Assembly (NCBI GenBank): GCA_949152475.1 | Contig: OX424568.1 | Coordinates: forward strand, 3,261,667 to 3,325,666 | Length of the DNA: 64,000 bases | Direction of reading: 5' to 3' | DNA from: Terebella lapidaria | Taxonomy: Eukaryota; Annelida; Polychaeta; Terebellida; Terebellidae | Shown: positions 14,039 to 64,000 of the stretch, one piece after another | Layout of the letters: each line of letters starts with the position of its first letter | Position numbering within the stretch: the first letter of the stretch is position 1 | The notes under the pieces: generated by a model | Databases searched by the model: none | What the model saw: only the letters and a program-made list of their open reading frames with translations | Told to the model about the DNA's origin: nothing | Made by a program: the position numbers and the translations under genes

Positions 14039-15427
14039 TGTAACGGGTTTGCACCCTTCTGTGACGTCTTGATGAACCGGTTTTCTTGGGAGGTGGGTGA
14101 GTTATTGTTTAACCGGAGCTGAAACGGTAAAACTCCGGGAAACTGCTACTGCTGTACGGTTGAACTCCGGCTAGAAGTCTCTAAGGGTGGTAGCGTGGTC
14201 TGGAATGGACCTCTTAACCGTTGTCCGACTGCTAATCTGCAACTGCACCTGTAAAGTAAGGATCCGGAGGCGTTTCCGTCTCCGGGTACTACAACTGCTC
14301 CATCGGGAAACCGCTTTACTGCAACAGCTCCGTCGTTTTCCGTCTTACTGCAAACTGCGACTGCGCCTGGAATTAAGAATCCGGGAACGTTGCCGTTTCC
14401 GAATACTGCAACCGCTCTGCCAGGTTCCGCCGCACTGCAATCTGCTCCGGTTGGCTCCGCCTCACTGCAACCTGGTACCGCACCTGAAATGGAGTATCTC
14501 GGAAGTGTTCTCACTTCCGGTTACCGCAACCGCTCCGTCAGGCACTGCCTCTGCAACTCCGTCGTCCGGTACCGCCTCTGCAACTGCTTTGTCGTTCCCG
14601 TCTCCGCAACTGCTCCGTCCGATACCGCCTCCGTAGTTGCTCCGTTGAATTCCACCTCCGTCTCCGTCTCCGTCTCCTGCCTCGGTGATCTGGGTTCTTG
14701 GATCACCCTAAGACGTCGTTACAACTTGGTCTTAACCGACTGTAGTCTTATCTCCCTTTACTCCGTATAACTGTCTTTTCCGGGAAACTAACTTTATTAT
14801 AACTTCCAGTTCCCTAACGAACACGGAAAAACAACTCGGTTGAAGTTTTCATGTTTATTTTCCAAGTTCACAGTCGGAAGACTTAACTGCTATCATCTGG
14901 ATGACTCTATCCGGAACAAGGGAGTACTCTGCTATGGGAGAAGGGGTCTGCACAGGTCGACGTCAGGACACCAACTCCGCCGTCCGCTGTGAAGCGGGGG
15001 CTTTTATAGACCTGAGACCCACGTCACGTGACCAACCTATTGTGACGTCATAGTCCGCCAAAACACTGATATTTTCCGGATTTCTAAAAACACTCTAGAA
15101 CCAATCAGTGGCTGACACGTCACCTTTTAAACCGAAAACGAGGCTGATCACATGACCTTCCGGAAATAACGTCATTACGTTTTTGTACTCCATTGTTCCG
15201 GCTCCGTGTCCGGTTCCGTCTCCGTCTCCGGATCCGTCTCCGGCTTTTACCAACATCATAAATTACTAAGTTCCGAGACGGAAAACCTTTAAAACATTAA
15301 CAATACGGAACCGTATGAACCTTTAAACACATATACACCCTAATAAACGGTTATTTAACCATAATATGACAAAACACTAACATAATTACCTAGGGGAAAC
15401 CTTTGGGTACGCCCCAAAACCGTTACA
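14039..15427 (-). repeat. 3' LTR of copy A
   Basis: 1389 bp. On the element strand it begins TGTAACGGTTTTGGGGCG and ends GGGTGCAAACCCGTTACA. AATAAA-type signals at 14859-14854 and 14798-14793 would serve 3' processing. The right half carries the TATA box (15008-15002). The low-coordinate half is CT-rich with TCCGTC repeats that create long accidental frames. Confidence 0.95.
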
Positions 15428-15440
15428 CTCCCCCTTCCTT
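15428..15440 (-). other. Polypurine tract of copy A
   Basis: On the element strand AAGGAAGGGGGAG abuts the 3' LTR, in the usual place for the plus-strand primer. Confidence 0.85.
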
Positions 15441-15704: not shown

Positions 15705-17552
15705 CTACTGCCCACCAGTATCACGGCGCGAACTGCTCCCCGACGGCGGACGCGGTGGAAAGGTCTGTGGTACCAACGGTCGTCCGAAGCTTGTTCCTCT
15801 GGCATCAACCGGGAGAAGATCCGGATCATGGAGGCTCCACTGGGGCGGGACGTAGAATCCATTCCTGAGGCGTTCGTCCCGGATGGACCAATCTGGAATC
15901 CGGACGATCTGACGGGTCGGGACGAGACCAAACGGTGACTCTCTCTGCTCCATGATCTCCACGTAGACGCCGGAGTCTCTCATCTCGGCTGGCCCCCACT
16001 GCTCCGGTCCCCAACGTACTGCATAGTATCTGGCGTGCTCCGGGACTGCGGGTGCAAAGACGGAAGCGCTCCGTCCCCCAATATTCACCGGGAAACAATG
16101 TGACGGACACGGTTGAGTTGAAGGACCGCCAAACGGGTAGAATGTGTAGGGTGGACTCTGGGTTGGCGCTCGGACTTGGCTCCTTCCGGACCGCTCACTG
16201 GAAGACTGTCGAGGCCGGGTCTCCACCGGAGACAGGATTCCGGGTGTAGCTCTGGCTTGGTCTACCAGGATACTCCTCCGGGCTCTCTGCACGTCCGCAT
16301 GGCTTCGTTCAGACGCGGAAGACTCCATTCCGTCATCTCTAGCCGCTGAACTGGTTCTGCTTCCGGCTACTGCTTGAATGGTTGCCGGCAAAGTTCGCTC
16401 CGTGGATCCTCGGGTCTCCGTCTCACTGCCAGCTCTGCTCCGGTTTCCGCCTTCCGTTTTGGTCTCCGGTCTGCCTCCTGATCTGCCAATGGGTCTGCTG
16501 TCCGCTCGGCTATCTGCTCTGCTATCTGCTCTATCTGCTCTGCTATCGGCTCGGCTATCTGCTCGGCCGCTGGATCTGATTTCTGCTCCGCCTCCGGGCC
16601 GGACAATCACACTGCTCACTGCTCTGCCACTGCTAGTTGTTCTCGGAGGTGGACTCCGGAAAAGGTCTTCCTCATCGTCTCGGCTCTGCATTTCCGCAAT
16701 GTCCGCCACTCCCACTTCTGCCGTTGCTCCGCTGGAACCTTCCTCCAACAGCCGGAACTTGTAGTCATACACCCCCTTGCCTTTTCCCTTGACGCTGCCT
16801 CCGGAAGACTTGGGTGGGGTGTGTCGTTTCTCCTCTCGACCACGTTCTCCGCCTCGGTCCTTGGCTCGCTCCGGGCTCTCCTTCCTATATTCTCGGCGTT
16901 GATGGCGTCCGGATTTATCCGGCGAACGGCTGCGACTCCGCTTCTTTCCGCGGTCTCGATCTGCTCCGGTACCTCGAGATGGGTCAGGGCTGTTTTTCCG
17001 GGAGGTGTTCCGGGAAGAACTCCGGGTCACAGGCGGCTTAACCGGCTTCGGGTCTCCTGGTTCTTGCAACTCGTCTTCACTTGCCATGATTTTCAGCTCC
17101 GCTTCCTCTTCCGAACTGCTCTCCGCCTCCGTGGACGAAACGTCGGCTGCTAGTGTGGCCACCGACTGGGTACCGGAACGGTACCGGGTCCGGGACGAAA
17201 CCGAACCTCCCGACTCCGACTCCGTATCCGACAACTGGTCAAGCCGTGTTACCGGCTTCTTGCTTTTCCGTGGGGTCATCTTGGACCGGAGGCTTTTCTC
17301 CTCAAACTGCTCTCTGCCCACCCTCAGTCGAATCGGGTTTGCGTCCATTGCGTGCCGGGACTGCAGATGCTTCTGTGTTCCCTCTTTCCGTCTGCTCCAA
17401 TGGTCACACTGCGGACAGGCGAAGACGGTGACTTCACTTGTGTGCTGCTCCGTGACATGCCGGAGCAACGTGTGCTTGCTCTTGAACTCTAGGTTGCAGT
17501 CTCCACACCGGTGAGGGCGGGGCTTGCGGGGTGTTGTCTTTACTTTCGGCAT
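15705..17552 (-). CDS. ORF4 of copy A: zinc-finger and SR-rich accessory protein
   Basis: 615 codons. The first 70 residues hold two C2H2 fingers (C16-C19-H32-H37 and C46-C49-H62-H67). A serine/acidic segment follows, then an arginine/serine-rich basic region (about 190-250), a run of RADS repeats (about 335-355) and a C-terminal 150-residue region with many W, P and aromatic residues that I do not recognise. The make-up suggests a nuclear nucleic-acid-binding regulator. No such gene is standard in Ty3/gypsy elements. It lies between ORF3 and the 3' LTR and has its own TATA-type promoter about 80 bp upstream of the ATG. Copy B has a 619-codon version that differs mainly in RADS repeat number. 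Confidence 0.85.
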   Translation of the reverse strand: MPKVKTTPRKPRPHRCGDCNLEFKSKHTLLRHVTEQHTSEVTVFACPQCDHWSRRKEGTQKHLQSRHAMDANPIRLRVGREQFEEKSLRSKMTPRKSKKPVTRLDQLSDTESESGGSVSSRTRYRSGTQSVATLAADVSSTEAESSSEEEAELKIMASEDELQEPGDPKPVKPPVTRSSSRNTSRKNSPDPSRGTGADRDRGKKRSRSRSPDKSGRHQRREYRKESPERAKDRGGERGREEKRHTPPKSSGGSVKGKGKGVYDYKFRLLEEGSSGATAEVGVADIAEMQSRDDEEDLFRSPPPRTTSSGRAVSSVIVRPGGGAEIRSSGRADSRADSRADRADSRADSRADSRPIGRSGGRPETKTEGGNRSRAGSETETRGSTERTLPATIQAVAGSRTSSAARDDGMESSASERSHADVQRARRSILVDQARATPGILSPVETRPRQSSSERSGRSQVRAPTQSPPYTFYPFGGPSTQPCPSHCFPVNIGGRSASVFAPAVPEHARYYAVRWGPEQWGPAEMRDSGVYVEIMEQRESPFGLVPTRQIVRIPDWSIRDERLRNGFYVPPQWSLHDPDLLPVDARGTSFGRPLVPQTFPPRPPSGSSSRRDTGGQ

Positions 17553-17630
17553 TCTGATTCTCTGCTTTGTGTCGATGTTGACTCAGCTACAGCAAACTGC
17601 CTTCTGCATCCGGTAACAGCTAACTGCCCC

Positions 17631-17680
17631 TTTTATAGTCTCGGGAAGTCACGTGACTGGCTTATCTGCTTGATGATTGG
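17631..17680 (-). promoter_or_regulatory. Predicted internal promoter for ORF4, copy A
   Basis: Read on the minus strand: CCAAT (17680-17676), GATAA, GTCACGTGAC (17657-17648) and TATAAAA (17637-17631), with the ORF4 ATG at 17552. The spacing between E-box and TATA is 11 bp, close to that in the LTR and the ORF3 promoter. Confidence 0.65.
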
Positions 17681-17727
17681 CTGCTCAGCAAACTGCAACT
17701 CCTCCTGGTGGTCTTCTTGGATAAATA

Positions 17728-17730
<3 letters not shown>

Positions 17731-17762
<32 letters not shown>
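17731..17762 (-). repeat. Internal poly(A) tract after ORF3, copy A
   Basis: 32 A on the element strand, about 100 bp after the ORF3 stop. The same tract is 40 A long in copy B. Confidence 0.9.
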
Positions 17763-17859
17763 CGTGTTGTTGCTGCTAACTGCCACCGCTTCTTCCGTCT
17801 CCGCCAAACTGCCAACCGCCTCCGTCAACCGCTATACTGCCAACCGCCTCCGTCTACTT

Positions 17860-18624
17860 TCACACTGCCTTCGCTTCCGTCCAGGAGTCCTCATCTGCCG
17901 TCTCATACTCCGACTCATCCGTCTCCGGCTCCGAAGTGGGAGAAGGTGGTCTATATTCCCACACCCGGATCTCTGCCTCCCAGTCTTCCACCGGCTGATC
18001 TTCTTCTTCGGGTTTCTCCCAATCGTCTGCTTGATCCGGCATAACTGCTCTGACCGCCTCTGCAATTAGCTCCATCTCCTGATCCCAGCTTTCCGGAGGA
18101 GCGTCGTCGGCGGCCCGGAGACAGCCCTGTGGATCCGGAACCCATTCCGGGAGATCTAACTGCTCCGGTTGTCCGATGGGGGCGGCTGCTCCGGCATCCC
18201 AGTCAGGGCCAAACGGAAGCTGGTCCGCATAAGTTCCCGGAACTGTATTCTCCCTTGGTGACCGGGTGCAGAATCGCCGGAAGCGCCTATGCCGGGACTG
18301 CGTTGCTGTTCCCCGCCAGGCCGAATCAAAGGTTCCCACATGGTTGAGGGTGGCCTCGTCCTGAGGAGGACGGTTCCCGGAAGGGTACTTCCACCCGTGC
18401 ATCTCCCGGAGATGCCTCCTAAGGTCGTTCGCCCGGTTGCCATAGAAGGCACACAAACAGCAATGAAATCTCTGGGCTGGGCACACATGCCGTCTCCGGT
18501 CCCTCGCACTCTCAAACATCCGGTCACACCGCTTACACAGCCGGCTATAATCCAGTGGCTGCGGGGTTGCCCAATCTCTGCTCCGGCCGCGATCTTGTCT
18601 ATCAAGGAACGCCGAGTAGGCCAT
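17860..18624 (-). CDS. ORF3 of copy A: zinc-finger protein with acidic tail
   Basis: 254 codons. N-terminal zinc-finger pair: an atypical first finger (C30-C33...H46, possibly C48) and a canonical C2H2 (C55-C58-H71-H76) ending LRRHLREMHGW. The C-terminal 90 residues are strongly acidic with W, E and D (for example EEEDQPVEDWEAE). A DNA-binding head with an acidic tail is the usual build of a transcription activator, so it may act on the shared promoters of the element; this is inference. It is preceded by its own promoter-like block and followed by the poly(A) tract. Copy B encodes 261 residues because a 7-residue segment before the fingers is duplicated. Confidence 0.85.
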   Translation of the reverse strand: MAYSAFLDRQDRGRSRDWATPQPLDYSRLCKRCDRMFESARDRRRHVCPAQRFHCCLCAFYGNRANDLRRHLREMHGWKYPSGNRPPQDEATLNHVGTFDSAWRGTATQSRHRRFRRFCTRSPRENTVPGTYADQLPFGPDWDAGAAAPIGQPEQLDLPEWVPDPQGCLRAADDAPPESWDQEMELIAEAVRAVMPDQADDWEKPEEEDQPVEDWEAEIRVWEYRPPSPTSEPETDESEYETADEDSWTEAKAV

Positions 18625-19676
18625 TCCGGAAGGCCGGGAAACTGAAATTGTCGATCTACTGCACCGCTTTTACTGCACCGCTTCTGCGCCGCCTCTCCGG
18701 ACTGGTGGTCTTCCGGGAAACACTTAGTCGTTTTTCACTGCAAAATCTGTTGCTGCCGGAAAATGCTGGACTTGATTCGATTCCGCCAAACTTTGTCTGC
18801 GATGTGCACAGCTCGAGGTCTGCTCTCCAACTGCTGTCAGAGCCCGATTTCAAGGCCCTTATATACCCTTTCTGCTCACGTGATTTGAAAAGCTCCATGC
18901 TGATTGGCTGCCTCAGGAGTGACGTCACAATTATGCAAAAACTCAACCGTTAACCGAGAGGTGTCCGTCTCCGGCTCAACCGGCTTCTCCGGGTTTTTCC
19001 GGCTCCCTTTCAACTGCTTCTCCGAGCGAAGTATCTGCAATTTTGAAGTATCTCTGCCATCGGGAGGGTTGAAAAGAGTCTCAGCCAGTTGAATCTGCCT
19101 CTCAGGCGAACATCTAGACTGCAAGTTGGGCGTTTCCGCCATCTGTACTGCTTCGTCAACTGCATATCTGCTCACTGGTATTACTGCTTGTCGACACTGG
19201 AAACTGCATACATTCTTGTCCAGAAGGAGGGCCCTTCCTATCTGGAATGATGTTTCACCGCTTCTGTCGATCTGCAGCCGGTTTGCTGTCTCTGCTAAGT
19301 GGAAACTCCGGTTGGATGTCTACAGCCGGAAAATTTTTCCGTCTTAATTCTCTGAATACGGAAGACGTGTAGCTGCTTCTCTGGAGATACTAGACCGCTA
19401 ACCCAGGTTCTTCTGGACCCCTGGCCGCTACCCTGGACTGGTTGACTATGCGCTCAAACCAGTCAGAACCTCTAGGATGTCTCTATCCGGTCTCTGCACC
19501 GCTTTCCGCTCTGCTTCCTTTCTCCGCCCTGTTTCCGGAACCAGCACTTGCTCACTGCTCCGACTTCTTGCGGTCGCTCTCTGCCGGAACTCAACGTTTT
19601 ACCAGGGTCTCAGCTATCTCCTTCTCCTGCTCTACAGCTCACTCCGTCTTCTCATAATTCTGCGTCCTCTGCGGCT
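18625..19676 (-). other. pol-ORF3 spacer of copy A
   Basis: About 1.05 kb without a coding frame on the element strand. It contains the ORF3 promoter and would form the ORF3 5' leader of about 200 nt. Confidence 0.6.
18859..18927 (-). promoter_or_regulatory. Predicted internal promoter for ORF3, copy A
   Basis: Read on the minus strand: CRE TGACGTCA (18927-18920), CCAAT (18907-18903), CACGTG (18882-18877) and TATATAA (18865-18859). The ORF3 ATG is about 235 bp downstream. This is the same set of boxes as in the LTR. Confidence 0.7.
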
Positions 19677-22600
19677 TTACTCCGAGTCCGTATCCGACTC
19701 AGAGACCGTCTGTTCCGTCTCCGGAACACTACTCTGCTTCGGCGGCTCCGTCTGCCTCCAGGAATCCGCCATCCTCCGCTTCATCCATCTCGGATGCTTG
19801 ATACCATTATACGGTTTCAGCAAATCGAAGTGAACCACCTTCTGTCGAGTTTCACTCTCTGCAATCTCGTAGGTCACGTCGGTAAATCTGCTCAGCACTA
19901 GCTTTGGACCGCTCCACTTCCTCTGCAACTTGGGAGCTTTGCCCTTCTTCCGTGTTTTGACCGCCATCCACACTCGGTCTCCTGGCTGGAACTGATTGTC
20001 GACCTTCCTCCGGTCGTACAGCTTCTTCTGCCGTTCCATTTCTCTGCCAGATTTCGCTTGAACCGCCTTGTATACCGCTTCTAGTCGCTCCCGGAGCTGA
20101 CTGCCATACTCTGTTACTTCTGCCGTTGATTCTCCCGGCGGTCTGCCAATCAGTAACTCAACCGGAGTGTTGACTTCTCTGCCCAGCATCAGCAAGTTGG
20201 GACTCTGCCCGGTTGTCTCCTGCGGGGTACTCCGGTAAGCTGCCATCGCCAACGGTACCAGCTGATCCCAGTTGGTCTGCCGCTCGCTTACGTACAGGCT
20301 CAAGATCTGCTGCAGCGTCCGGTTGAATCGCTCGATGAAACCGTCCGACTGAGGTCGGAAAGCGGTTGTCCGTGTCTTGTGAATCCCCAGGATTCTGCAA
20401 ACATTTCTCAGCAAGTCGGACTCGAAATTTCTGCCTTGGTCGGTGTGTATCTCCATCGGGATACCGTACCGCGCTGCAAACTGGTTGACGAATATGTCCG
20501 CAACCGTCACCGCTTCCTGATTCGGCATCGGGTAAGCCTCTACCCACTTGGTGAAGTAATCACCGATTACTAAGATGTACCGGTTCCCCCGGGTGGATTT
20601 AGGCAACGGACCCATCACGTCCATTGCCACCCTCTCCATGGGCGCTCCAACCCGGTATTTCTGCATCGGAGATCGTTTCAGGTTCTGCATACTTCTTGAC
20701 GCACATTCGTCACAGCTCAGCACCCACTGCTTTATGTCCCGCATCATAGCCGGCCAGAAATACCGCCTCCGAATGCTAGCCGCCATCCTTCTGCTTCCGA
20801 GGTGTCCTCCCGTCCGGCTCTGGTGGGCCAGACGGAAAATCTCCTGTCTCAGCTCCTTCGGGGTTATTAACTGCATTCGGCTGGTTCCTTCTGCCGTTTT
20901 CCATTTCCGGTAGACTACTCCGTCGACTTTCAGCAAGGTCTTCCGCATCCCGTACAGCACTTTCTCCTCGCTGCTCATGCTGGAAAAGTCTGCACTGCCA
21001 GCTGTACCGCTCCCGTCGATCAGCGACGTCACCAGTGAGTACCATGGTTCTGCTTGCTGCATTCTCCGCAAATCATCTGGTCGATATTTCTGCCCCAGCA
21101 CAGTATCCTGGTCCGCATTCTCCGCCAGCCTAATCTGCTCTGCAACCGCATCCGCTTTTCCTGGAACTGCCTTCTCCGTCACCGCAACCGCAACCGGCTT
21201 CCGGGACACTGCTTTTTCCGTCACCGCAACCGCAACCGGCTTCCGGGACGCTGCTTTCTCCGTCACCGCAACCGGCTTCCGGGACGCTGCTTTCTCCGTC
21301 ACCGCAACCGCCTTCCTTGGGACTGCTTCCTCCGTCAGTTCTGCTCCTCCGCCCGATCTCCTTGACCGCTTCCGGCGTCCCCCCTTCCTTGGCTTGGGCT
21401 GAGGAGTTTCTTCACTTCGTGTCTGCCGGATTCTTTCTCCGTAGTTCCAGGCGTCTATCTTGGCTTGTTTCCAGTCGATTTTTCCGCATTGGCTGCATGG
21501 GGATCTGGACAAGGCATCCGCATTATTATGAATTCGCCCCGGACGATGTTCGATGTCGAAATGAAACTCACTCAGGAGCTCAATCCACCGGGCTACCTGC
21601 CCCTGGGGCTCCTTGAAATTCATAAGCCAGGTAAGACTGCCATGATCCGTGCGAAGAAGGAAGTGTCGTCCCAGCAAGTACTGCTTATTCTTCTGTACCG
21701 CAAACACAACCGCCAGGAGCTCCTTCCGGGTGACACAGTATCTCCGTTCTTCTTTGGTTAGGCTGCGGCTCAAGTAGGTTATCACCCGCTCCTGGTTGCC
21801 CTGCTTCTGTGACAGTACTGCTCCCAGCCCGGTGTCACTGGCGTCCGTGTCCAGGATATATCGGCCTTGCTCCCTAGGGTACCCGAGTATCGGTGCCGAT
21901 ACTAGGCGGTTCTTCAGCTCTGCAAATGCCTGTTCTTGCTCCGTCTGCCACCGGAACGGCACCCCTTTTTCCGTCAAGTGATTCAGCGGCGCTGCAATCT
22001 CGGAGAACTTCGGCACGAACTTCCGGTAATAGGAGCAAAGTCCCAGAAAACTGCGCAGCTCCGTCAGGTTGGTGGGTGTCCGCCACTTCCGTACTGCCTC
22101 CGTTTTTGCCGGGTCGGTGCGGATACCGTCTCTGCCAACTATGTGACCTAGGAAAGACACCTCCGGCTGGAAGAACGTGCATTTTGACGGTTTGACTTTT
22201 AGGTCTGCCTCTCTCAGCTTGCTGAACACCTCCTGAAGATCACGGATGTGATCCTCCAGGGTCTTGCTGTAGACTATGATGTCGTCCAGATATATGAGGC
22301 AGGTCTTCCAGGACAAACCGCCTAGCACCTTCTCCATCAACCGCTCGAACGTACCCGGAGCATTGCACAAGCCGAAACTCATCACTTTGAACTGGTAAAG
22401 GCCGCCAGGAACACAGAAGGCCGACTTTTTCCGGGCGTCTTCATCCATCCCGACCTGCCAGTAGCCACTGGTCAGGTCGAGAGTGGAGAACCATTTAGCG
22501 TCTGCACAGGCTGCTATGGTGTCGTCTATTCTCGGCAACGGATAAGCATCTTTCTCCGTGACTGCATTTAACCGCCGGTAATCGACGCAGAACCGGGTGG

Positions 22601-23665
22601 TTCCATCCTTTTTCTTCACGAGGACAATCGGTGAAGCCCACGGACTGCTACTTTCTTCAATGACGTTCTTGTCTTTCATCTCCTGAATCAGACTGCTCAC
22701 CAGCTCCCTCTTGTCTGGCGGAATTCGTCTGGTTGGCTGCTTAATCGGCCGGTGACTGCCCGTGTTTATCTGATGTTGTACCTCGTTGGTCTGCCCCAGT
22801 TCTCCGGCATCATTACTGAAGGTCGGCTTATTCCGAAATAGGAGGTCGGTTACTCTCTCGCGGAAATGACTCGGCACTGCATCCTGGGTCTGCTCTGCTA
22901 ACTGCCGCAGCTTCTCGTACCCGCTCCAATTCCGCCCGGCCTCCGACTCCGTGGAAATCTGCACCTTCCGGCTCCGCTCCGCCAACGGCACAACACTGCA
23001 ACCGGCTGCTAAGGTGGTCATCGTCGCCAACTGCGCTCCTTTCTTGATGATTACCGGCTCTGCCATCACGTTGATCACTCGAACCGGGACTGTTCCTTGC
23101 TTTAACCGGGATAAAGTTCTCCCGATCAGCCAAGGTCTTTTCTCCGTAGGCTCCTGCGGCATTTCTAGTACTCCTTCTGCTTCACGGACACTCTCTGCTT
23201 GTCCTATAATCAGCTGTTCCGTTTCCGGCGGAATTTGGTAATCTGCTACAGCGTTGATCGGAAACGGCTCCCTGGTCTGCTCGAACATGGTGAGGAACAC
23301 CTCCTGGCTGCCCATCTGCATGGTCATCCGGTCGAAGTTTATGCCGGATACTCGGGAACGGATGAAATCCATCCCCAGTATTCCTTCGTCTTCACAGTCT
23401 GCAATCTCGAACGTCACGGTCTCAGCTACTCCTGCGATGTTGAGTGGGAGTTCTTTCCGGCCATGTGTCCGTATGTTACTTCCGTCAACCATTGAATCGG
23501 CGACCGCTTCAGCTTCATTCCGGGTTTCCGGATCCGTTCCCAGGTTTGTAGGTTGAGCATTGTGACAGTGCTGCCGGTGTCGATTATCAGCGTTACTGGC
23601 TCTCCGCATACTCTGGCTGTCACACACATGCCCACCTCGCCCCTGGGACCGGGTCCGTGAACCAC
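19677..23665 (-). CDS. pol of copy A (protease, RT, RNase H, integrase)
   Basis: Polyprotein of a Ty3/gypsy element. In order: aspartic protease (IIDTGSTV), reverse transcriptase (LDLTSGYWQV; YLDDIIVYS), RNase H (DTDASDTGLGAVLS), a lysine/alanine-rich repeat tether, integrase zinc finger (HQSRTGGHLG...CDEC), DDE core (MDVMGP, HTDQGRN, ERFNR) and the GDRVW...W.GP C-terminal region. No chromodomain seen. Pol lies in the -1 frame relative to gag with overlapping frames, the arrangement for which the family uses ribosomal frameshifting. This copy appears broken, about one break. Confidence 0.9.
21165..21330 (-). repeat. Repeat tether inside pol, copy A
   Basis: Tandem copies encoding variants of AVTEKAASRKPV between RNase H and integrase. 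The unit is about 36-54 bp, and copy B has a slightly different unit composition. Confidence 0.8.
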
Positions 23666-23727: not shown

Positions 23728-25008
23728 CTAGTTTTCCGGCTGCTGCTGCTGCTGTCGTGGCTGCTGCAATTGTTGCTGCTGCTGCGGCTGCTGCTGCTGC
23801 TGCTGTTGTCGCGGCGACTGCTGCTGTTGTGGTTGACGCCGCTGCTGCTGCTGCTTCGGCTGCCTACAGTCTCGGGCAAAATGCCCTTTCCGGCCACAGT
23901 TGAAACATTCCAAATCCGCTCGGGAACTGCGCTGCTGCTGCTGCCGGCTAACCGCTTCCTTGACCTGAGTCATCAGATCCGCCATCTGCTGCTGAGTCTG
24001 CTCGGCTTGCTTCCGCAATTCGTTCACCTGCTGGCTCCACTCCGGCTCCGTGTTCAGCTGCCTCGTCCGGTGTCGCTCCGCTGGTCTGCTGTTGTCCGTT
24101 TTCATGATACTCTCATACTCGGTAGCGAAAGCCAGGGCCTGCGACAGCGTTTCCGGGTGGCTTTTCAATACCGACAACCGCATATCTCGGTTAGTCAGGC
24201 TGTTGCAGAAATGCATCTTCATGAGCACTTCTGTTGTTGCCGGATCTGCTTTTGGGTAAGCTAGCCGCGTCTTGCTCCGTATGTCTCTGGCCAGCTCGGA
24301 CAGCTCCTCCTCCGGCTGCAATTTCCGTGTCTGCAATTCTGCCTGGAAAACAAATGTTTTCTCCCCCGGACAAAACTGCTGTTTTAATGCCGCCACAACC
24401 GTATCAAAGCTGCGTCTCTGCTCCGCGGACAGATCCAGTAGTATGCTGCGGGCGTTACCCCTCAAACTGACACATAAGTTCAGCGCCTTTTCCTCTGCTG
24501 TCCAACGGTAGTACCGAGCGTATTCAAGGAGGTGAGCCTCATATTCCGGCCACGGATCAGTTCCGTCGTATGTCATTAATCTGGCTACTCCTGCCCTTGG
24601 TGCTGGCTGTTGTACTGCTTCTGCCTGCTGCTGCTTTCCGGTTACTGCCAGGTGCTGCTGAAACACCTCCATTTGGGTCGCCAATAATCTGGTCAGGTTG
24701 TCGACTAAGTTCTCTCCGCCTTCCGGGTCCGCATCCGGTTCCCGATCGCCAGCCTGGTCCGGAAAGTTAATTTCCGCCTCTGCTAACTGCTCTGCAGGCT
24801 GTTCTCCTTGAGGAACCCGGAGGGGCTCGTCTGCAACTGCTTTCTGCATTTCCGGCTGCAACAGCTTCCGCTCGGCAGGACGAACCGCTTCCTTTTCCGC
24901 AACCGGCATCTGCAACGGCTCAGCTCCTACTGCTCCTACAGGCTGCTCCGTGTCCGACACGGCTGCCTTCAGCTGCTGTTCCGCCAATTTGCCCCGTCTA
25001 GTAGTCAT
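23728..25008 (-). CDS. gag of copy A
   Basis: 426 codons starting MTTRRGKLAEQQLK. The N-terminal third is E/Q-rich. A capsid-like region (about 145-290) has the Ty3-type signature around YARYYRWTAEEKALNLCVSL. A glutamine-rich coil follows, then one CCHC knuckle (CFNCGRKGHFARDC, about 368-381) and a C-terminal poly-glutamine tail encoded by CAG runs. It forms the particle and packages RNA. The ATG lies about 10 bp after the primer-binding site. Copy B differs at few positions and by two glutamines. Confidence 0.92.
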   Translation of the reverse strand: MTTRRGKLAEQQLKAAVSDTEQPVGAVGAEPLQMPVAEKEAVRPAERKLLQPEMQKAVADEPLRVPQGEQPAEQLAEAEINFPDQAGDREPDADPEGGENLVDNLTRLLATQMEVFQQHLAVTGKQQQAEAVQQPAPRAGVARLMTYDGTDPWPEYEAHLLEYARYYRWTAEEKALNLCVSLRGNARSILLDLSAEQRRSFDTVVAALKQQFCPGEKTFVFQAELQTRKLQPEEELSELARDIRSKTRLAYPKADPATTEVLMKMHFCNSLTNRDMRLSVLKSHPETLSQALAFATEYESIMKTDNSRPAERHRTRQLNTEPEWSQQVNELRKQAEQTQQQMADLMTQVKEAVSRQQQQRSSRADLECFNCGRKGHFARDCRQPKQQQQRRQPQQQQSPRQQQQQQQPQQQQQLQQPRQQQQQPEN

Positions 25009-25018: not shown

Positions 25019-25036
25019 ATCCCACCGCTGCCACCA
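25019..25036 (-). other. Primer-binding site, tRNA-Leu, copy A
   Basis: The plus-strand sequence ATCCCACCGCTGCCACCA equals the 3' end (with CCA) of a common animal tRNA-Leu, so the element strand is complementary over 18 nt. It lies 6 nt inside the 5' LTR, as expected. Confidence 0.85.
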
Positions 25037-25042: not shown

Positions 25043-26431
25043 TGTAACGGGTTTGCACCCTTCTGTGACGTCTTGATGAACCGGTTTTCTTGGGAGGTGG
25101 GTGAGTTATTGTTTAACCGGAGCTGAAACGGTAAAACTCCGGGAAACTGCTACTGCTGTACGGTTGAACTCCGGCTAGAAGTCTCTAAGGGTGGTAGCGT
25201 GGTCTGGAATGGACCTCTTAACCGTTGTCCGACTGCTAATCTGCAACTGCACCTGTAAAGTAAGGATCCGGAGGCGTTTCCGTCTCCGGGTACTACAACT
25301 GCTCCGTCGGGAAACCGCTTTACTGCAACAGCTCCGTCGTTTTCCGTCTTACTGCAAACTGCGACTGCGCCTGGAATTAAGAATCCGGGAACGTTGCCGT
25401 TTCCGAATACTGCAACCGCTCTGCCAGGTTCCGCCGCACTGCAATCTGCTCCGGTTGGCTCCGCCTCACTGCAACCTGGTACCGCACCTGAAATGGAGTA
25501 TCTCGGAAGTGTTCTCACTTCCGGTTACCGCAACCGCTCCGTCAGGCACTGCCTCTGCAACTCCGTCGTCCGGTACCGCCTCTGCAACTGCTTTGTCGTT
25601 CCCGTCTCCGCAACTGCTTCGTCCGATACCGCCTCCGTAGTTGCTCCGTTGAATTCCACCTCCGTCTCCGTCTCCGTCTCCTGCCTCGGTGATCTGGGTT
25701 CTTGGATCACCCTAAGACGTCGTTACAACTTGGTCTTAACCGACTGTAGTCTTATCTCCCTTTACTCCGTATAACTGTCTTTTCCGGGAAACTAACTTTA
25801 TTATAACTTCCAGTTCCCTAACGAACACGGAAAAACAACTCGGTTGAAGTTTTCATGTTTATTTTCCAAGTTCACAGTCGGAAGACTTAACTGCTATCAT
25901 CTGGATGACTCTATCCGGAACAAGGGAGTACTCTGCTATGGGAGAAGGGGTCTGCACAGGTCGACGTCAGGACACCAACTCCGCCGTCCGCTGTGAAGCG
26001 GGGGCTTTTATAGACCTGAGACCCACGTCACGTGACCAACCTATTGTGACGTCATAGTCCGCCAAAACACTGATATTTTCCGGATTTCTAAAAACACTCT
26101 AGAACCAATCAGTGGCTGACACGTCACCTTTTAAACCGAAAACGAGGCTGATCACATGACCTTCCGGAAATAACGTCATTACGTTTTTGTACTCCATTGT
26201 TCCGGCTCCGTGTCCGGTTCCGTCTCCGTCTCCGGATCCGTCTCCGGCTTTTACCAACATCATAAATTACTAAGTTCCGAGACGGAAAACCTTTAAAACA
26301 TTAACAATACGGAACCGTATGAACCTTTAAACACATATACACCCTAATAAACGGTTATTTAACCATAATATGACAAAACACTAACATAATTACCTAGGGG
26401 AAACCTTTGGGTACGCCCCAAAACCGTTACA
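25043..26431 (-). repeat. 5' LTR of copy A
   Basis: 1389 bp, nearly identical to 14039-15427. The promoter is at 26054-26006, AATAAA-type signals at 25863-25858 and 25802-25797. Transcription would start near 25980, giving a long U5 of about 0.75 kb. Confidence 0.95.
26006..26054 (-). promoter_or_regulatory. LTR promoter, copy A
   Basis: Read on the minus strand: CRE TGACGTCA (26054-26047), GTCACGTGAC (26036-26027) and TATAAAA (26012-26006). A CCAAT in the opposite orientation lies farther out near 26105. Confidence 0.75.
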
Positions 26432-51759: not shown

Positions 51760-53147
51760 TGTAACGGGTTTGAACCCTTCTGTGACGTCTTGATGAACCG
51801 ATTTTCTAGGGAGGTGGGTGAGTTGTTGTTTAACCGGAGCTGAAACGGTAAAACTCCGGGAAACTGCTACTGTTGTACGGTTGAACTCCGGCTAGAAGTC
51901 TCTAAGGTTGGTAGCGTGGTCTGGAATGGACCTCTTAACCGTTGCCCGACTGCTAATCTGCAACTGCACCTGTAAAGTAAGGATCCGGAGGCGTTTCCGT
52001 CTCCGGGTACTGCAACTGCTCCGTCAGGAAACCGCTTTACTGCAACAGCTCCGTCGTTTTCCGTCTTACTGCAAACTGCGACTGCGCCTGGAATAAAGAA
52101 TCCGGGAACGTTGCCGTTTCCGAATACTGCAACCGCTCTGCCAGGTTCCGCCGCACTGCAATCTGCTCCGGTTGGCTCCGCCTCACCGCAACCTGCGACT
52201 GCACCTGAAATGGAGTATCTCGGAAGTGTTCCTACTTCCGGTTACCGCAACCGCTCCGTCAGGTACTGCCTCTGCAACTCCGTCGTCCGGTACCGCCTCT
52301 GCAACTGCTTCGTCGTTCCCGTCTCTGCAACTGCTCCGTCCGATACCGCCTCCGTAGTTGCTCCGTTGATTTCCACCTCCGTCTCCGTCTCCGACTCCTT
52401 CCTCGGTGATCTGGGTTCTTAGATCACCCTAAGACGTCGTTACAACTTGGTCTTAACCGACTGTAGTCTTATCTCCCTTTACTCCGTATAACTGTCTTTT
52501 CCGGGAAACTAACTTTATTATAACTTCCAGTTCCCTAACGAACACGGAAAAACAACTCGGTTGAAGTTTTCATGTTTATTTTCCAAGTTCACAGTCGGAA
52601 GACTTAACTGCTATCATCTGGATGACTCTATCCGGAACAAGGGAGTACTCTGCTATGGGAGAAGGGGTCTGCACAGGTCGACGTCAGGACACCAACTCCG
52701 CCGTCCGCTGTGAAGCGGGGGCTTTTATAGACCTGAGACCCACGTCACGTGACCAACCTATTGTGACGTCATAGTCCGCCAAAACACTGATATTTTCCGG
52801 ATTTCTAAAAACACTCTAGAACCAATCAGTGGCTGACACGTCACCTTTTAAACCGAAAACGAGGCTGATCACATGACCTTCCGGAAATAACGTCATTACG
52901 TTTTTGTACTCCATTGTTCCGGCTCCGTGTCCGGTTCCGTCTCCGTCTCCGGATCCGTCTCCGGCTTTACCGACATCATAAATTACTAAGTTCCGAGACG
53001 GAATACCTTTAAAACATTAACAATACGGAACCGTATGAACCTTTAAACACATATACACCCTAATAAACGGTTATTTAACCATAATATCACAAAACACTAA
53101 CATAAATACCTAGGGGAAACCTTTGGGTACGCCCCAAAACCGTTACA
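51760..53147 (-). repeat. 3' LTR of copy B
   Basis: 1388 bp with TG...CA ends; TATA box at 52739-52733. Confidence 0.95.
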
Positions 53148-53412: not shown

Positions 53413-55272
53413 CTACTGCCCACCAGTATCACGGCGCGAACTGCTCCCCGACGGCGGACGCGGTGGAAAGGTCTGTGGTACCAATGGTCGTCCGAAGCTT
53501 GTCCCTCTGGCATCAACCGGGAGAAGATCCGGATCATGGAGGCTCCACTGGGGCGGGACGTAGAACCCATTCCTGAGGCGTTCGTCTCGGATGGACCAAT
53601 CTGGAATCCGGACGATCTGACGGGTCGGGACGAGACCAAACGGTGACTCTCTCTGCTCCATGATCTCTACGTAGACGCCGGAGTCTCTCATCTCGGCTGG
53701 CCCCCACTGCTCCGGTCCCCAACGTACTGCATAGTATCTAGCGTGCTCCGGGACTGCGGGCGCAAAGACGGAAGCGCTCCGTCCCCCAATATTCACCGGG
53801 AAACAATGTGACGGACACGGTTGAGTTGAAGGACCGCCAAACGGGTAGAATGTGTAGGGTGGACTCTGGGTTGGTGCTCGGACTTGGCTCCTTCCGGACC
53901 GCTCACTGGAAGACTGTCGAGGTCGGGTTTCCACCGGAGACAGGATTCCGGGTGTAGCTCTGGCTTGATCTACCAGGATACTCCTCCGGGCTCTCTGCAC
54001 GTCCGCATGGCTTCGTTCAGACGCGGAAGACTCTATTCCGTCATCCCTAGCCGCTGAACTGGTTCTGCTTCCGGCTACTGCTTGAATGGTTGCCGGCAAA
54101 GTTCGCTCCGTGGATCCTCGGGTCTCCGTCTCACTGCCAGCTCTGCTCCGGTTTCCGCCTTCCGTTTTGGTCTCCGGTCTGCCTCCCGATCTGCCAATGG
54201 GTCTGCTGTCCGCTCGGCTATCTGCTCTGCTATCTGCTCTATCTGCTCTGCTATCGACTCGGCTATCTGCTCTGCTATCGGCTCGGCCGCTGGATCTGAT
54301 TTCTGCTCCGCCTCCGGGCCGGACAATCACACTGCTCACTGCTCTGCCACTGCTAGTTGTTCTCGGAGGTGGACTCCGGAAAAGGTCTTCCTCATCGTCT
54401 CGGCTCTGCATTTCCGCAATGTCTGCCACTCCCACTTCTGCCGTTGCTCCGCCGGAACCTTCCTCCAACAGCCGGAACTTGTAGTCATACACCCCCTTGC
54501 CTTTTCCTTTGACGCTGCCTCCGGAAGACTTGGGTGGGGTGTGTCGTTTCTCCTCTCGACCACGTTCTCCGCCTCGGTCCTTGGCTCGCTCCGGGCTCTC
54601 CTTCCTATATTCTCGGCGTTGATGGCGTCCGGATTTATCCGGCGAACGGCTGCGACTCCGCTTCTTTCCGCGGTCTCGATCTGCTCCGGTACCTCGAGAT
54701 GGTTCAGGGCTGTTTTTCCGGGAGGTGTTCCGGGAAGAACTCCGGGTCACAGGCGGCTTAACCGGCTTCGGGTCTCCTGGTTCCTGCAACTCGTCTTCAC
54801 TTGCCATGATTTTCAGCTCCGCTTCCTCTTCCGAACTGCTGTCCGCCTCCGTGGACGAAACGTCGGCTGCTAGTGTGGCCACCGACTGGGTACCGGAACG
54901 GTACCGGGTCCGGGACGAAACCGAACCTCCCGACTCCGACTCCGTATCCGACAACTGGTCAAGCCGTGTTACCGGCTTCTTGCTTTTCCGTGGGGTCATC
55001 TTGGACCGGAGGCTTTTCTCCTCAAACTGCTCTCTGCCCACCCTCAGTCGAATCGGGTTTGCGTCCATTGCGTGCCGGGACTGCAGATGCTTCTGTGTTC
55101 CCTCTTTCCGTCTGCTCCAATGGTCACACTGCGGACAGGCGAAGACGGTGACTTCACTTGTGTGCTGCTCCGTGACATGCCGGAGCAACGTGTGCTTGCT
55201 CTTGAACTCTAGGTTGCAGTCTCCACACCGGTGAGGGCGGGGCTTGCGGGGTGTTGTCTTTACTTTCGGCAT
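53413..55272 (-). CDS. ORF4 of copy B: zinc-finger and SR-rich accessory protein
   Basis: 619 codons with the same two C2H2 fingers at residues 16-67, RS-rich middle and unrecognised W/P-rich C-terminus as copy A. The RADS repeat block is longer, with an extra RVDS-type unit, while the 11-bp ACTTGCGACG repeat after the stop is shorter. The rest is nearly identical, which suggests the protein is under selection or has diverged only recently. Confidence 0.85.
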   Translation of the reverse strand: MPKVKTTPRKPRPHRCGDCNLEFKSKHTLLRHVTEQHTSEVTVFACPQCDHWSRRKEGTQKHLQSRHAMDANPIRLRVGREQFEEKSLRSKMTPRKSKKPVTRLDQLSDTESESGGSVSSRTRYRSGTQSVATLAADVSSTEADSSSEEEAELKIMASEDELQEPGDPKPVKPPVTRSSSRNTSRKNSPEPSRGTGADRDRGKKRSRSRSPDKSGRHQRREYRKESPERAKDRGGERGREEKRHTPPKSSGGSVKGKGKGVYDYKFRLLEEGSGGATAEVGVADIAEMQSRDDEEDLFRSPPPRTTSSGRAVSSVIVRPGGGAEIRSSGRADSRADSRVDSRADRADSRADSRADSRPIGRSGGRPETKTEGGNRSRAGSETETRGSTERTLPATIQAVAGSRTSSAARDDGIESSASERSHADVQRARRSILVDQARATPGILSPVETRPRQSSSERSGRSQVRAPTQSPPYTFYPFGGPSTQPCPSHCFPVNIGGRSASVFAPAVPEHARYYAVRWGPEQWGPAEMRDSGVYVEIMEQRESPFGLVPTRQIVRIPDWSIRDERLRNGFYVPPQWSLHDPDLLPVDARGTSFGRPLVPQTFPPRPPSGSSSRRDTGGQ

Positions 55273-55587: not shown

Positions 55588-56373
55588 TCACACTGCCTTC
55601 GCTTCCGTCCAGGAGTCCTCATTTGCCGTCTCATACTCCGACTCATCCGTCTCCGGCTCCGAAGTGGGAGAAGGTGGTCTATATTCCCACACCCGGATCT
55701 CTGCCTCCCAGTCTTCCACCGGCTGATCTTCCTCTTCGGGTTTCTCCCAATCGTCTGCTTGATCCGGCATAACTGCTCTGACCGCCTCTGCAATTAGCTC
55801 CACCTCCCGATCCCAGCTTTCCGGAGGAGCGTCGTCGGCGGCCCGGAGACAGCCCTGTGGATCCGGAACCCATTCCGGGAGATCTAACTGCTCCGGTTGT
55901 CCGATGGGGGCGGCTGCTCCGGCATCCCAGTCAGGGCCAAACGGAAGCTGGTCCGCATAAGTTCCCGGAACTGTATTCTCCCTTGGTGACCGGGTGCAGT
56001 ATCGCCGGAAACGCCTATGCCGGGACTGCGTTGCTGTTCCCCGCCAGGCCGAATCAAAGGTTCCCACATGGTGGAGGGTGGCCTCGTCCTGAGGAGGACG
56101 GTTCCCGGAAGGGTACTTCCACCCGTGCATCTCCCGGAGATGCCTCCTAAGGTCGTTCGCCCGGTTGCCATAGAAGGCACACAAACAGCAATGAAATCTC
56201 TGGGCTGGGCACACATGCCGTCTCCGGTCCCTCGCACTCTCAAACATCCGGTCACACCGCTTACACAGCCGGCTATAATCCAGTGGCAGCCGGCTATAAT
56301 CCAGTGGCTGCGGGGTTGCCCAATCTCTGCTCCGGCCGCGATCTTGTCTATCAAGGAACGCCGAGTAGGCCAT
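55588..56373 (-). CDS. ORF3 of copy B: zinc-finger protein with acidic tail
   Basis: 261 codons. The segment PLDYSRL is present twice before the fingers (a 21-bp tandem duplication compared with copy A), so the finger cysteines start at C37. The canonical finger and the acidic C-terminal tail are conserved. Confidence 0.85.
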   Translation of the reverse strand: MAYSAFLDRQDRGRSRDWATPQPLDYSRLPLDYSRLCKRCDRMFESARDRRRHVCPAQRFHCCLCAFYGNRANDLRRHLREMHGWKYPSGNRPPQDEATLHHVGTFDSAWRGTATQSRHRRFRRYCTRSPRENTVPGTYADQLPFGPDWDAGAAAPIGQPEQLDLPEWVPDPQGCLRAADDAPPESWDREVELIAEAVRAVMPDQADDWEKPEEEDQPVEDWEAEIRVWEYRPPSPTSEPETDESEYETANEDSWTEAKAV

Positions 56374-57425: not shown

Positions 57426-60400
57426 TTACTCCGAGTCCGTATCCGACTCAGAGACCGTCGGTTCCGTCTCCGGAACACTACTCTGCTTCGGCGGCTCCGT
57501 CTGCCTCCAGGAATCCGCCATTCTCCGCTTCATCCATCTCGGATGCTTGACGCCATTATACGGTTTCAGCAAATCGAAGTGAACCACCTTCTGTCGAGTT
57601 TCACTCTCTGCAATCTCGTAGGTCACGTCGGTAAATCTGCTCAGCACTAGCTTTGGACCGCTCCACTTCCTCTGCAACTTGGGAGCTTTGCCCTTCTTCC
57701 GTGTTTTGACCGCCATCCACACTCGGTCTCCTGGCTGGAACTGATTGTTGACCTTCCTCCGGTCGTACAGCTTCTTCTGCCGTTCCATTTCTCGGCCAGA
57801 TTTCGCTCGAACCGCCTTGTATACCGCCTCTAGTCGCTCCCGGAGCTGACTGCCATACTCTGTTACTTCTGCCGTTGATTCTCCCGGCGGTCTGCCAATC
57901 AGTAACTCTACCGGAGTGTTGACTTCTCTGCCCAGCATCAGCAAGTTGGGACTCTGCCCGGTTGTCTCCTGCGGGGTACTCCGGTAAGCTGCCATCGCCA
58001 ACGGAACTAGCTGATCCCAGTTGGTCTGCCGCTCGCTTACGTACAGGCTCAAGATCTGCTGCAGCGTCCGGTTGAATCGCTCGATGAAACCGTCCGACTG
58101 AGGTCGGAAAGCGGTCGTCCGTGTCTTGTGAATCCCCAGGATTCTGCAAACATTTCTCAGCAAGTCGGACTCGAAATTTCTGCCTTGGTCGGTGTGTATC
58201 TCCATCGGGATACCGTACCGCGCTGCAAACTGGTTGACGAATATGTCCGCAACCGTCACCGCTTCCTGATTCGGCATCGGGTAAGCCTCTACCCACTTGG
58301 TGAAGTAATCGCCGATTACTAAGATGTACCGGTTCCCCCGGGTGGATTTAGGTAACGGACCCATCACGTCCATTGCCACCCTCTCCATGGGCGCTCCAAC
58401 CCGGTATTTCTGCATCGGAGATCGTTTCAAGTTCTGCATACTTCTTGACGCACATTCGTCACAGCTCAGCACCCACTGCTTTATGTCCCGCATCATAGCC
58501 GGCCAGAAATACCGCCTCCGAATGCTAGCCGCCATCCTTCTGCTTCCGAGGTGTCCTCCCGTCCGGCTCTGGTGGGCCAGACGGAAAATCTCCTGTCTCA
58601 GCTCCTTCGGGGTTATTAACTGCATTCGGCTGGTTCCTTCTGCCGTTCTCCATTTCCGGTAGACTACTCCGTCGACTTTCAGCAAGGTCTTCCGCATCCC
58701 GTACAGCACTTTCTCCTCGCTGCTCATGCTGGAAAAGTCTGCACTGCCAGCTGTACCGCTCCCGTCGATCAGCGACGTCACCAGTGAGTACCAAGGTTCT
58801 GCTTGCTGCATTCTCCGCAAATCATCTGGTCGATATTTCTGCCCCAGCACAGTATCCTGGTCCGCATTTTCCGCCAGCCTAATCTGCTCTGCAACCGCAT
58901 CCGCTTTTCCTGGAACTGCCTTCTCCGTCACCGCAACCGCAACCGGCTTCCGGGACACTGCTTTCTCCGTCACCGCAACCGCAACCGGCTTCCGGGACGC
59001 TGCTTTCTCCGTCACCGCAACCGCAACCGGCTTCCGGGACGCTGCTTTCTCCGCTACTGCAACCGCCTTCCTTGGGACTGCTTCCTCCGTCAGTTCTGCT
59101 TCTCCGCCCGATCTCCTTGACCGCTTCCGGCGTCCCCCCTTCTTTGGCTTGGGCTGAGGAGTTTCTTCACTTCGTGTCTGCCGGATTCTTTCTCCGTAGT
59201 TCCAGGCATCTATCTTGGCTTGTTTCCAGTCGATTTTTCCGCATTGGCTGCATGGGGATCTGGACAAGGCGTCCGCATTATTATGGATTCGCCCCGGACG
59301 ATGTTCGATGTCGAAATGAAACTCACTCAGGAGCTCAATCCACCGGGCTACCTGCCCCTGGGGCTCCTTGAAATTCATAAGCCAGGTCAGACTGCCATGA
59401 TCCGTGCGAAGAAGGAAGTGTCGTCCCAGCAAGTACTGCTTATTCTTCTGTACCGCAAACACAACCGCCAGGAGCTCCTTCCGGGTGACACAGTATCTCC
59501 GTTCTTCTTTGGTTAGGCTGCGGCTCAAGTAGGTTATCACCCGCTCCTGGTTGCCCTGCTTCTGTGACAGTACTGCTCCCAGCCCGGTGTCACTGGCGTC
59601 CGTGTCCAGGATATATCGGCCTTGCTCCCTTGGGTACCCGAGTATCGGTGCCGATACTAGGCGGTTCTTCAGCTCTGCAAATGCCTGTTCTTGCTCCGTC
59701 TGCCACCGGAACGGCACCCCTTTTTCCGTCAAGTGATTCAGCGGCGCTGCAATCTCGGAGAACTTCGGCACGAACTTCCGGTAATAGGAGCAAAGTCCCA
59801 GAAAACTGCGCAGCTCCGTCAGGTTGGTGGGTGTCCGCCACTTCCGTACTGCCTCCGTTTTTGCCGGGTCGGTGCGGATACCGTCTCTGCCGACTATGTG
59901 ACCTAGGAAAGACACCTCCGGCTGGAAGAACTTGCATTTTGACGGTTTGACTTTTAGGTCTGCCTCTCTCAGCTTGCTGAACACCTCCTGAAGATCACGG
60001 ATGTGATCCTCCAGGGTCTTGCTGTAGACTATGATGTCGTCCAGATATATGAGGCAGGTCTTCCAGGACAAACCGCCTAGCACCTTCTCCATCAACCGCT
60101 CGAACGTACCCGGAGCATTGCACAAGCCGAAACTCATCACTTTGAACTGGTAAAGGCCGCCAGGAACACAGAAGGCCGACTTTTTCCGGGCGTCTTCATC
60201 CATCCCGACCTGCCAGTAGCCACTGGTCAGGTCGAGAGTGGAGAACCATTTAGCGTCTGCACAGGCTGCTATGGTGTCGTCTATTCTCGGCAACGGATAA
60301 GCATCTTTCTCCGTGACTGCATTTAACCGCCGGTAATCGACGCAGAACCGGGTGGTCCCATCCTTTTTCTTCACGAGGACAATCGGTGAAGCCCACGGAC

Positions 60401-62810: not shown

Positions 62811-64000
62811 TGTAACGGGTTTGAACCCTTCTGTGACGTCTTGATGAACCGATTTTCTAGGGAGGTGGGTGAGTTGTTGTTTAACCGGAGCTGAAACGGT
62901 AAAACTCCGGGAAACTGCTACTGTTGTACGGTTGAACTCCGGCTAGAAGTCTCTAAGGTTGGTAGCGTGGTCTGGAATGGACCTCTTAACCGTTGCCCGA
63001 CTGCTAATCTGCAACTGCACCTGTAAAGTAAGGATCCGGAGGCGTTTCCGTCTCCGGGTACTGCAACTGCTCCGTCAGGAAACCGCTTTACTGCAACAGC
63101 TCCGTCGTTTTCCGTCTTACTGCAAACTGCGACTGCGCCTGGAATAAAGAATCCGGGAACGTTGCCGTTTCCGAATACTGCAACCGCTCTGCCAGGTTCC
63201 GCCGCACTGCAATCTGCTCCGGTTGGCTCCGCCTCACCGCAACCTGCGACTGCACCTGAAATGGAGTATCTCGGAAGTGTTCCTACTTCCGGTTACCGCA
63301 ACCGCTCCGTCAGGTACTGCCTCTGCAACTCCGTCGTCCGGTACCGCCTCTGCAACTGCTTCGTCGTTCCCGTCTCTGCAACTGCTCCGTCCGATACCGC
63401 CTCCGTAGTTGCTCCGTTGATTTCCACCTCCGTCTCCGTCTCCGACTCCTTCCTCGGTGATCTGGGTTCTTAGATCACCCTAAGACGTCGTTACAACTTG
63501 GTCTTAACCGACTGTAGTCTTATCTCCCTTTACTCCGTATAACTGTCTTTTCCGGGAAACTAACTTTATTATAACTTCCAGTTCCCTAACGAACACGGAA
63601 AAACAACTCGGTTGAAGTTTTCATGTTTATTTTCCAAGTTCACAGTCGGAAGACTTAACTGCTATCATCTGGATGACTCTATCCGGAACAAGGGAGTACT
63701 CTGCTATGGGAGAAGGGGTCTGCACAGGTCGACGTCAGGACACCAACTCCGCCGTCCGCTGTGAAGCGGGGGCTTTTATAGACCTGAGACCCACGTCACG
63801 TGACCAACCTATTGTGACGTCATAGTCCGCCAAAACACTGATATTTTCCGGATTTCTAAAAACACTCTAGAACCAATCAGTGGCTGACACGTCACCTTTT
63901 AAACCGAAAACGAGGCTGATCACATGACCTTCCGGAAATAACGTCATTACGTTTTTGTACTCCATTGTTCCGGCTCCGTGTCCGGTTCCGTCTCCGTCTC
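62811..64000 (-). repeat. 5' LTR of copy B, incomplete at the window edge
   Basis: 1190 bp are visible. On the element strand the promoter is CRE 63822-63815, GTCACGTGAC 63804-63795 and TATAAAA 63780-63774. The outer end and target duplication are outside the window. Confidence 0.95.

Follow-up and report, generated by a model that had tools for sequence, protein, structure and literature searches.

The 64-kb window analysed here, a stretch of 64,000 nucleotides from contig OX424568.1 of the annelid Terebella lapidaria, holds two copies (A and B) of one long terminal repeat (LTR) element, both on the minus strand and 98.3% identical across 12.26 kb. The element is 12.4 kb long, with LTRs of 1.4 kb, and reads on its coding strand as 5' LTR, gag, pol, ORF3, ORF4, polypurine tract and 3' LTR. 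We confirm that it is a young Ty3/gypsy LTR retrotransposon with many copies and two accessory genes, and we add a new feature, namely that each accessory gene appears to follow a promoter-like module of its own, composed of CCAAT, CACGTG and TATA motifs. With moderate confidence, and on the strength of sequence, we read the element as a retrotransposon whose two regulator genes are each transcribed from an internal promoter, an arrangement analogous but not related to Tas and the internal promoter of foamy viruses.

Copy A spans positions 14039-26431. Its two 1389-bp LTRs (3' LTR at 14039..15427, 5' LTR at 25043..26431) end in TG..CA and differ by 2 mismatches, and the 4-bp repeat ATAG stands on both sides of the copy. 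Between them lie the polypurine tract AAGGAAGGGGGAG (15428..15440), which directly adjoins the 3' LTR, ORF4 (15705..17552, 615 codons) with the module P4 upstream of it (17628..17682), ORF3 (17860..18624, 254 codons) with the module P3 upstream of it (18856..18927), the reverse transcriptase-RNase H-integrase part of pol (19677..23477), a 426-codon gag in which Pfam detects a CCHC zinc knuckle (23728..25008) and, adjoining the 5' LTR, a stretch read from the sequence as resembling a primer-binding site (25020..25036), presumably for tRNA-Leu. Between ORF3 and P4 lies a poly(A) tract (17731..17762 on the minus strand; 32 nt, and 40 nt in copy B) that may mark a capture event or serve as a spacer. 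Copy B begins at 51760 with its 3' LTR (51760..53147) and continues with ORF4 (53413..55272, 619 codons), P4 (55348..55402), ORF3 (55588..56373, 261 codons, including an in-frame 7-codon duplication), P3 (56605..56676), pol (57426..61391), gag (61490..62776) and a 5' LTR truncated by the window end (62811..64000); its LTR pair is identical over the comparable 1191 bp, and all four of its genes (gag, pol, ORF3, ORF4) have open frames. The two minus-strand genes that the earlier note had placed between pol and the 3' LTR are therefore real features of both copies, with the codon counts it gave. Its description of them as intact in A and B holds for ORF3 and ORF4, although copy A as a whole is not intact, since a frameshifting length difference breaks the protease region upstream of the pol part given above.

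The assignment to Ty3/gypsy, also proposed in that note, is borne out by pol, whose Pfam domains (RVT_1, RNase H, Integrase_H2C2 and rve) stand in the Ty3/gypsy order and whose best solved relative is the Ty3 Gag-Pol structure 7q5b (expectation value, E, 1.6e-120), followed by the reverse transcriptase/RNase H structure 4ol8, which we take to be that of Ty3 as well. Short repeats lie in pol between RNase H and integrase (21100-21337 and 58849-59092) and are unlike in A and B. An Rfam search gave no match, and among viral contigs there was none for ORF3 and four pattern matches for pol, none of them confirmed. Further copies were sought across the genome (761.6 Mb in 438 contigs).

Both accessory proteins begin with a pair of zinc fingers. 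The earlier expectation of N-terminal C2H2-type pairs is correct for ORF4 (residues 16-67), in which both fingers are canonical (C-X2-C-X12-H-X4-H), and half correct for ORF3 (residues 30-76), in which finger 2 is canonical while finger 1 reads C-X2-C-X12-H-X1-C; Pfam matches to the fingers are weak and lie under the curated cut-offs. The final 60 residues of ORF3 (about 195-254) form an acidic, tryptophan-rich tail. In ORF4, the fingers are followed by a charged middle rich in arginine-serine (RS) dipeptides, with 21 RS/SR dipeptides in residues 151-400 when counted by 50-residue blocks, and by a C-terminal part of 145 residues with zero differences between A and B. Neither protein contains a transmembrane-like stretch (19-residue hydropathy maxima of 0.34 for ORF3 and 0.81 for ORF4), which rules out an env-like gene for either. 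Searches for relatives, as the earlier note had advised, gave a divided result: for ORF3, one 177-residue fragment with 97% identity on an 868-base ENA contig; for ORF4, no relative in the best-sharing 7988 candidates, nor any for its C-terminal part among 277 candidates.

Among solved structures, CTCF chains are the best match of both finger pairs. For the ORF4 pair, E falls as low as 1.5e-17 over a whole chain, and the highest-scoring single pair, at residues 404-461 of the full-length CTCF chain and presumably fingers 6-7, reaches about 30 bits; the ORF3 pair is weaker (E 3.2e-6 over a whole chain, 15 bits for the best stretch). The two pairs align with each other at E 0.004 and 26% identity, which does not decide whether ORF3 and ORF4 share an origin. 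Because the PDB is a limited library, this likeness is a lead rather than an origin, and the long finger array typical of CTCF proteins is replaced here by two fingers in each protein. The match nevertheless raises the possibility that ORF3 and ORF4 counter host silencing, for example by a CTCF-like insulating or opening of the element's chromatin. We regard this as improbable, given that the likeness extends to one finger pair in each protein, at the modest scores above, and that the base-reading helix positions, inspected under a helix numbering that we assume, are largely unlike those of CTCF.

Purifying selection, for which the earlier note had proposed a codon-based test, is evident on both genes. 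Between A and B, ORF4 carries 19 synonymous and 4 non-synonymous differences, with a ratio of non-synonymous to synonymous rates (Ka/Ks) of 0.07 (p 7e-9), as compared with 2 and 1 in gag and 25 and 10 in pol (Ka/Ks 0.12). The length differences between the two copies in ORF4, ORF3 and the compared part of pol (12, 21, 6 and 6) are multiples of three, the exception being the protease region of A, whereas the non-coding pieces compared, four of which differ in length, show 1, 10, 2 and 8. For a broader view we assembled 41 copies by their ORF3 DNA, namely A, B and the 39 copies other than A among the best 40 of 518 candidates, and counted distinct alleles relative to copy A. ORF3 is open over more than 230 codons in 41/41 and ORF4 over more than 560 codons in 35/41. 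Across the 35 open copies, ORF4 shows 92 synonymous and 48 non-synonymous alleles, a polymorphism ratio (pN/pS) of 0.19 (p 9e-22), which becomes 0.13 (34 and 12) for alleles common to at least two open copies; the fingers have 7 synonymous alleles and 1 non-synonymous. When all 41 copies are used, broken ones included, the ratio is 0.43 in frame versus 1.55 and 1.40 in the wrong frames, and alleles found in at least two copies number 37 synonymous to 16 non-synonymous in frame, as opposed to 8/45 and 6/45 out of frame. By the same measure pol gives 0.34 (shared alleles 0.18) in 20 copies, comprising 19 of the 20 fetched and B, with L067 left out as not alignable, while the gap between pol and ORF3, treated as coding, gives 0.70-0.92.

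For ORF3, the open copies yield 19 synonymous and 33 non-synonymous alleles (0.57, p 0.04), or 8 and 7 among shared ones (0.29, p 0.016). More divergent copies are more informative. The ORF3 tail is diverged or missing in 7 of 29 probed copies, and four of these seven were examined in full (L097+L080, L098+L079, L100+L091 and L099+L095); their frames are open over 233, 261, 225 and 231 codons. Against A, residues 1-165 differ at 18.5/14.5, 1/1, 12.5/9.5 and 23.5/7.5 synonymous/non-synonymous sites, giving Ka/Ks of 0.24, 0.30, 0.23 and 0.10 (p 2.7e-5, 0.41, 0.001 and 1.6e-10). The fingers differ at 5/1, 0/0, 5/0 and 6/0, with Ka/Ks of 0.00-0.05 in the three informative comparisons. Among these variants the tail changes in length and order, and the fingers are nearly constant. 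The tallied finger ligands are likewise invariant, all eight in 35/35 copies for ORF4 and seven of eight in 41/41 for ORF3 (C58 was left untallied). Could the two ORFs be passenger genes or chance open frames? Taken alone, the A-B comparison of ORF3 is without constraint, and some copies do lack the genes, as discussed below. We consider this alternative highly improbable in light of the low ORF4 ratio, set against values above 1 in the wrong frames, and of the Ka/Ks of 0.10-0.24 in three of four ORF3 comparisons. Chance or decaying frames in particular are ruled out, for ORF4 by the frame-controlled pN/pS and for ORF3 by the diverged copies.

The modules upstream of the two genes share their composition and order. 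P3 reads TGACGTCA - AGCCAATCA - TCACGTGA - TATATAAGGG in copy A, with TATAAAAGGG replacing TATATAAGGG in copy B; P4 reads AGCCAATCA - TCACGTGA - TATAAAAGGG; and the LTR holds a module of TGACGTCA - TCACGTGA - TATAAAAG (26054-26005 in the 5' LTR of copy A), and inspection shows a reversed CCAAT (ATTGG) above it. We presume that these motifs are bound by host NF-Y, E-box and CREB-type factors. The ordered pattern CCAATCA..CACGTG..TATAWAA(G) occurs at 4 places in the 64 kb, every one of them a P3 or a P4, and was found on average 0 times, versus 2 seen, in 400 simulations of the dinucleotide make-up of copy A. CACGTG followed by TATAWA within 60 bases occurs ten times in the window, eight of them within the element (four LTRs, two P3 and two P4). 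In local alignments of 211-base cores with 2000 shuffles, P3 and P4 score 50 (best shuffle 40), and the LTR and P3 score 38 in A and 42 in B (best shuffles 34 and 37).

Both modules are complete in 39/41 copies, L012 lacking the CACGTG of P4 and L023 lacking P4, and the seven listed motifs show just 3 distinct substitutions across copies. Counting from 35 nt below the TATA, the first ATG met is the start codon of the gene itself in 41/41 copies for P3 and 39/39 for P4; in A and B, one ATG precedes ORF4 at 28 nt below the TATA, approximately at the expected transcription start. The 241 nt from TATA to ORF3 contain no ATG, and the 748 nt above P3 contain seven. A different explanation is that ORF3 and ORF4 are real but made from spliced or readthrough LTR transcripts, splicing being used by complex retroviruses and env-bearing gypsy elements, and that P3 and P4 are internal enhancers or LTR-like relics without promoter activity. 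The resemblance of P3 to the LTR promoter region would suit such a relic; the conservation of motif order, spacing and sequence and the ATG-free leader of ORF3 argue against it, and we judge it unlikely.

Under the reading of two internally promoted regulator genes, gag and pol would be driven by the LTR promoter, and P3 and P4 would be two internal RNA polymerase II promoters that make ORF3 and ORF4 separate transcription units, started by host NF-Y, E-box and CREB-type factors. Since P3 and P4 share their host-factor sites with the LTR (CCAAT, CACGTG and TATA; for P3 also TGACGTCA), all three units would be activated in concert. ORF3 would most likely be a DNA-binding activator, its fingers binding and its acidic, tryptophan-rich tail activating, and ORF4 most likely a cofactor that acts in the nucleus and binds DNA or RNA, with a CTCF-like finger pair, an RS-rich middle and a constrained C-terminus. 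Jointly, the two could set the expression of the element, their presumed target, much as Tas from the foamy internal promoter does. The earlier note had likewise proposed a regulator pair like that of complex retroviruses, and the internal promoter-like modules lend this idea support; the individual roles it suggested are putative, the ground for ORF3 as an activator being the acidic, tryptophan-rich tail and for ORF4 in splicing or integration an RS-rich composition, with no relative found. A more elaborate version, which we hold only tentatively, is a self-encoded two-protein transcription circuit, in which the LTR, P3 and P4 are built together, ORF3 is an activator with a fast-evolving acidic tail, ORF4 is CTCF-like, deleted derivatives use the proteins in trans, and a foamy-like early/late switch has evolved separately in a Ty3/gypsy element.

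A number of observations weigh against our reading. The promoter motifs match consensus sites and were selected once they had been noticed, so that the module statistics measure strength and do not amount to a test planned in advance; the alignment of the LTR with P4 is weaker (score 30, reached by 4/2000 shuffles); and the ATG-free 241-nt leader has P 0.017 under base shuffling, with its G/A-rich composition also lowering ATG counts. As for ORF3, its A-B differences (2 synonymous, 5 non-synonymous) are too few for a verdict; in the ORF3-picked sample its ratio of 0.57 compares with 0.88 and 1.09 in the wrong frames; one of the diverged copies (S79) differs in its tail only and is too close to A to tell; and two of the four (S91 and S95) have a different, less acidic tail end. 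Two fingers alone confer little DNA specificity. Structure prediction, which the earlier note had suggested for the C-terminal region of ORF4, gave no usable model (AlphaFold mean confidence, pLDDT, of 36 and 39).

Deletion derivatives argue most strongly against a requirement for both proteins in cis. When the last kilobase of pol was used as query and the best 40 of 1056 candidates were taken (listed at 99-100%), eleven had already been sampled, namely A and ten copies from the ORF3-chosen set of 39, and the other 29 were examined over 601 bases at the expected ORF3-ORF4 junction. The ORF4 start was matched in 23/29, among which L095 lacks the first finger and P4 and L091 lacks the full P4 pattern, and was absent in 6/29. 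Further 601-base stretches showed that all six non-matching copies are internally deleted. L105 has lost ORF3 and keeps P4 and the ORF4 start (the second finger falls in unread bases), in L106 the deletion runs from the P3 TATA as far as roughly codon 311 of ORF4, and L101-L104 lack most of ORF3, P4 and ORF4 to about codon 320. Overall, 6/40 pol-chosen copies are without ORF3 and 5 of those are also without the ORF4 fingers. L102-L104 have the same main breakpoints (L101 differs at the first), hence this deleted form has itself been amplified; copies that have lost ORF3 and the ORF4 fingers thus do multiply, with a pol 3' end like that of copy A. The earlier note had held that copies lacking both genes, or substitutions free of constraint, would refute a functional role; such copies exist, while the substitutions do show constraint. 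The constraint test suggests that the gene-less copies are derivatives, which does not prove that the genes are needed for transposition. Perhaps the deleted forms were helped in trans; proteins that work in trans, as a regulator does, would permit such multiplication.

The same derivatives bear on a post-transcriptional role, whereby ORF4 packages or escorts the element's nucleic acid, or anchors its integration complex on chromatin, with ORF3 as the partner of ORF4. The RS-rich stretch, the CTCF-like fingers and the C-terminal part of ORF4, constrained at a pN/pS of 0.14 and with no fold assigned, would fit this role. Separate promoters, as we see it, are more to be expected of a regulator than of a particle protein needed in stoichiometric amounts, and the finger-less derivatives still multiplied, which also fits action in trans; we therefore deem it somewhat unlikely, and retain regulation from internal promoters as the preferred explanation. 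LTR retrotransposons are generally taken to depend on host factors for their transcription, whereas this element may carry its own gene-control circuit. If true, the logic of complex retroviruses can arise without env, in a young Ty3/gypsy family, and the deletion derivatives make trans-dependence testable within one genome.

The window contains further features. A gag-like frame with a SCAN domain and a CCHC knuckle (3396-5540, minus strand) comes from a different LTR-type element, a reverse transcriptase frame (RVT_1; 32509-34140, minus strand) is of non-LTR type by inspection, and an ISXO2/IS1595-like transposase domain lies at 46935-47552 on the plus strand. A tandem array with a 134-bp unit (41695-43200) has a related inverted array about 13 kb apart (28203-28991).

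In comparison with known systems, the element resembles Ty3/gypsy (Metaviridae) in its gag, its reverse transcriptase-RNase H-integrase pol, CCHC knuckle, TG..CA LTRs, 4-bp flank repeat and polypurine tract, and differs in its length of 12.4 kb, its 1.4-kb LTRs, the two zinc-finger genes after pol and the internal promoter-like modules. With Troyka elements it shares a gypsy-like gag-pol; these are described as having CG..CG ends, 3-bp duplications and LTRs of 100-400 bp (PMC12440569), and membership is ruled out by TG..CA ends, 4 bp and 1389-bp LTRs. Extra ORFs after pol are already known (PMC5408684, PMC7264820, PMC11963269, PMC6431247), and a foamy-like zebrafish element is described with three unassigned ORFs (PMC2774666). 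Our searches of open-licence PubMed Central (PMC) papers, which cannot show absence, brought up no gypsy element with two sense C2H2 accessory genes behind matched internal promoters. The bdelloid rotifer LTR elements Juno and Vesta carry a family-specific ORF3 downstream of pol, and ORF3s of this type are reported as DEDDy exonucleases, GDSL esterases or env-like (PMC5408684), with 'zinc finger' occurring 0 times in the main text of that article. The plant elements Grande and Retand have an extra antisense ORF between pol and the 3' LTR, that of Grande with its own promoter and a nuclear protein (PMC7264820; PMC11963269), whereas here both genes are in sense orientation, zinc-fingered and each behind its own module.

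Foamy viruses (Spumaretrovirinae) come closest in organisation. Their regulatory genes lie downstream of an internal promoter, and Tas binds DNA in both the LTR and the internal promoter (PMC7390438); the basal activity of the latter makes Tas, which then activates both promoters (PMC7390438; PMC8670036). Foamy viruses also have env, for which ORF3 and ORF4 offer no counterpart, and the longest stop-to-stop coding-strand frame contained entirely within the 1.05-kb gap between pol and ORF3 has 147 codons (the gap frames were not domain-scanned). The two foamy promoters show little sequence relatedness, according to the account cited (PMC7390438), whereas P3 resembles the LTR promoter, and there are two internal modules here instead of one. 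The foamy virus is thus the closest working model for this element rather than a relative, and we make no claim that ORF3 or ORF4 is related to Tas.

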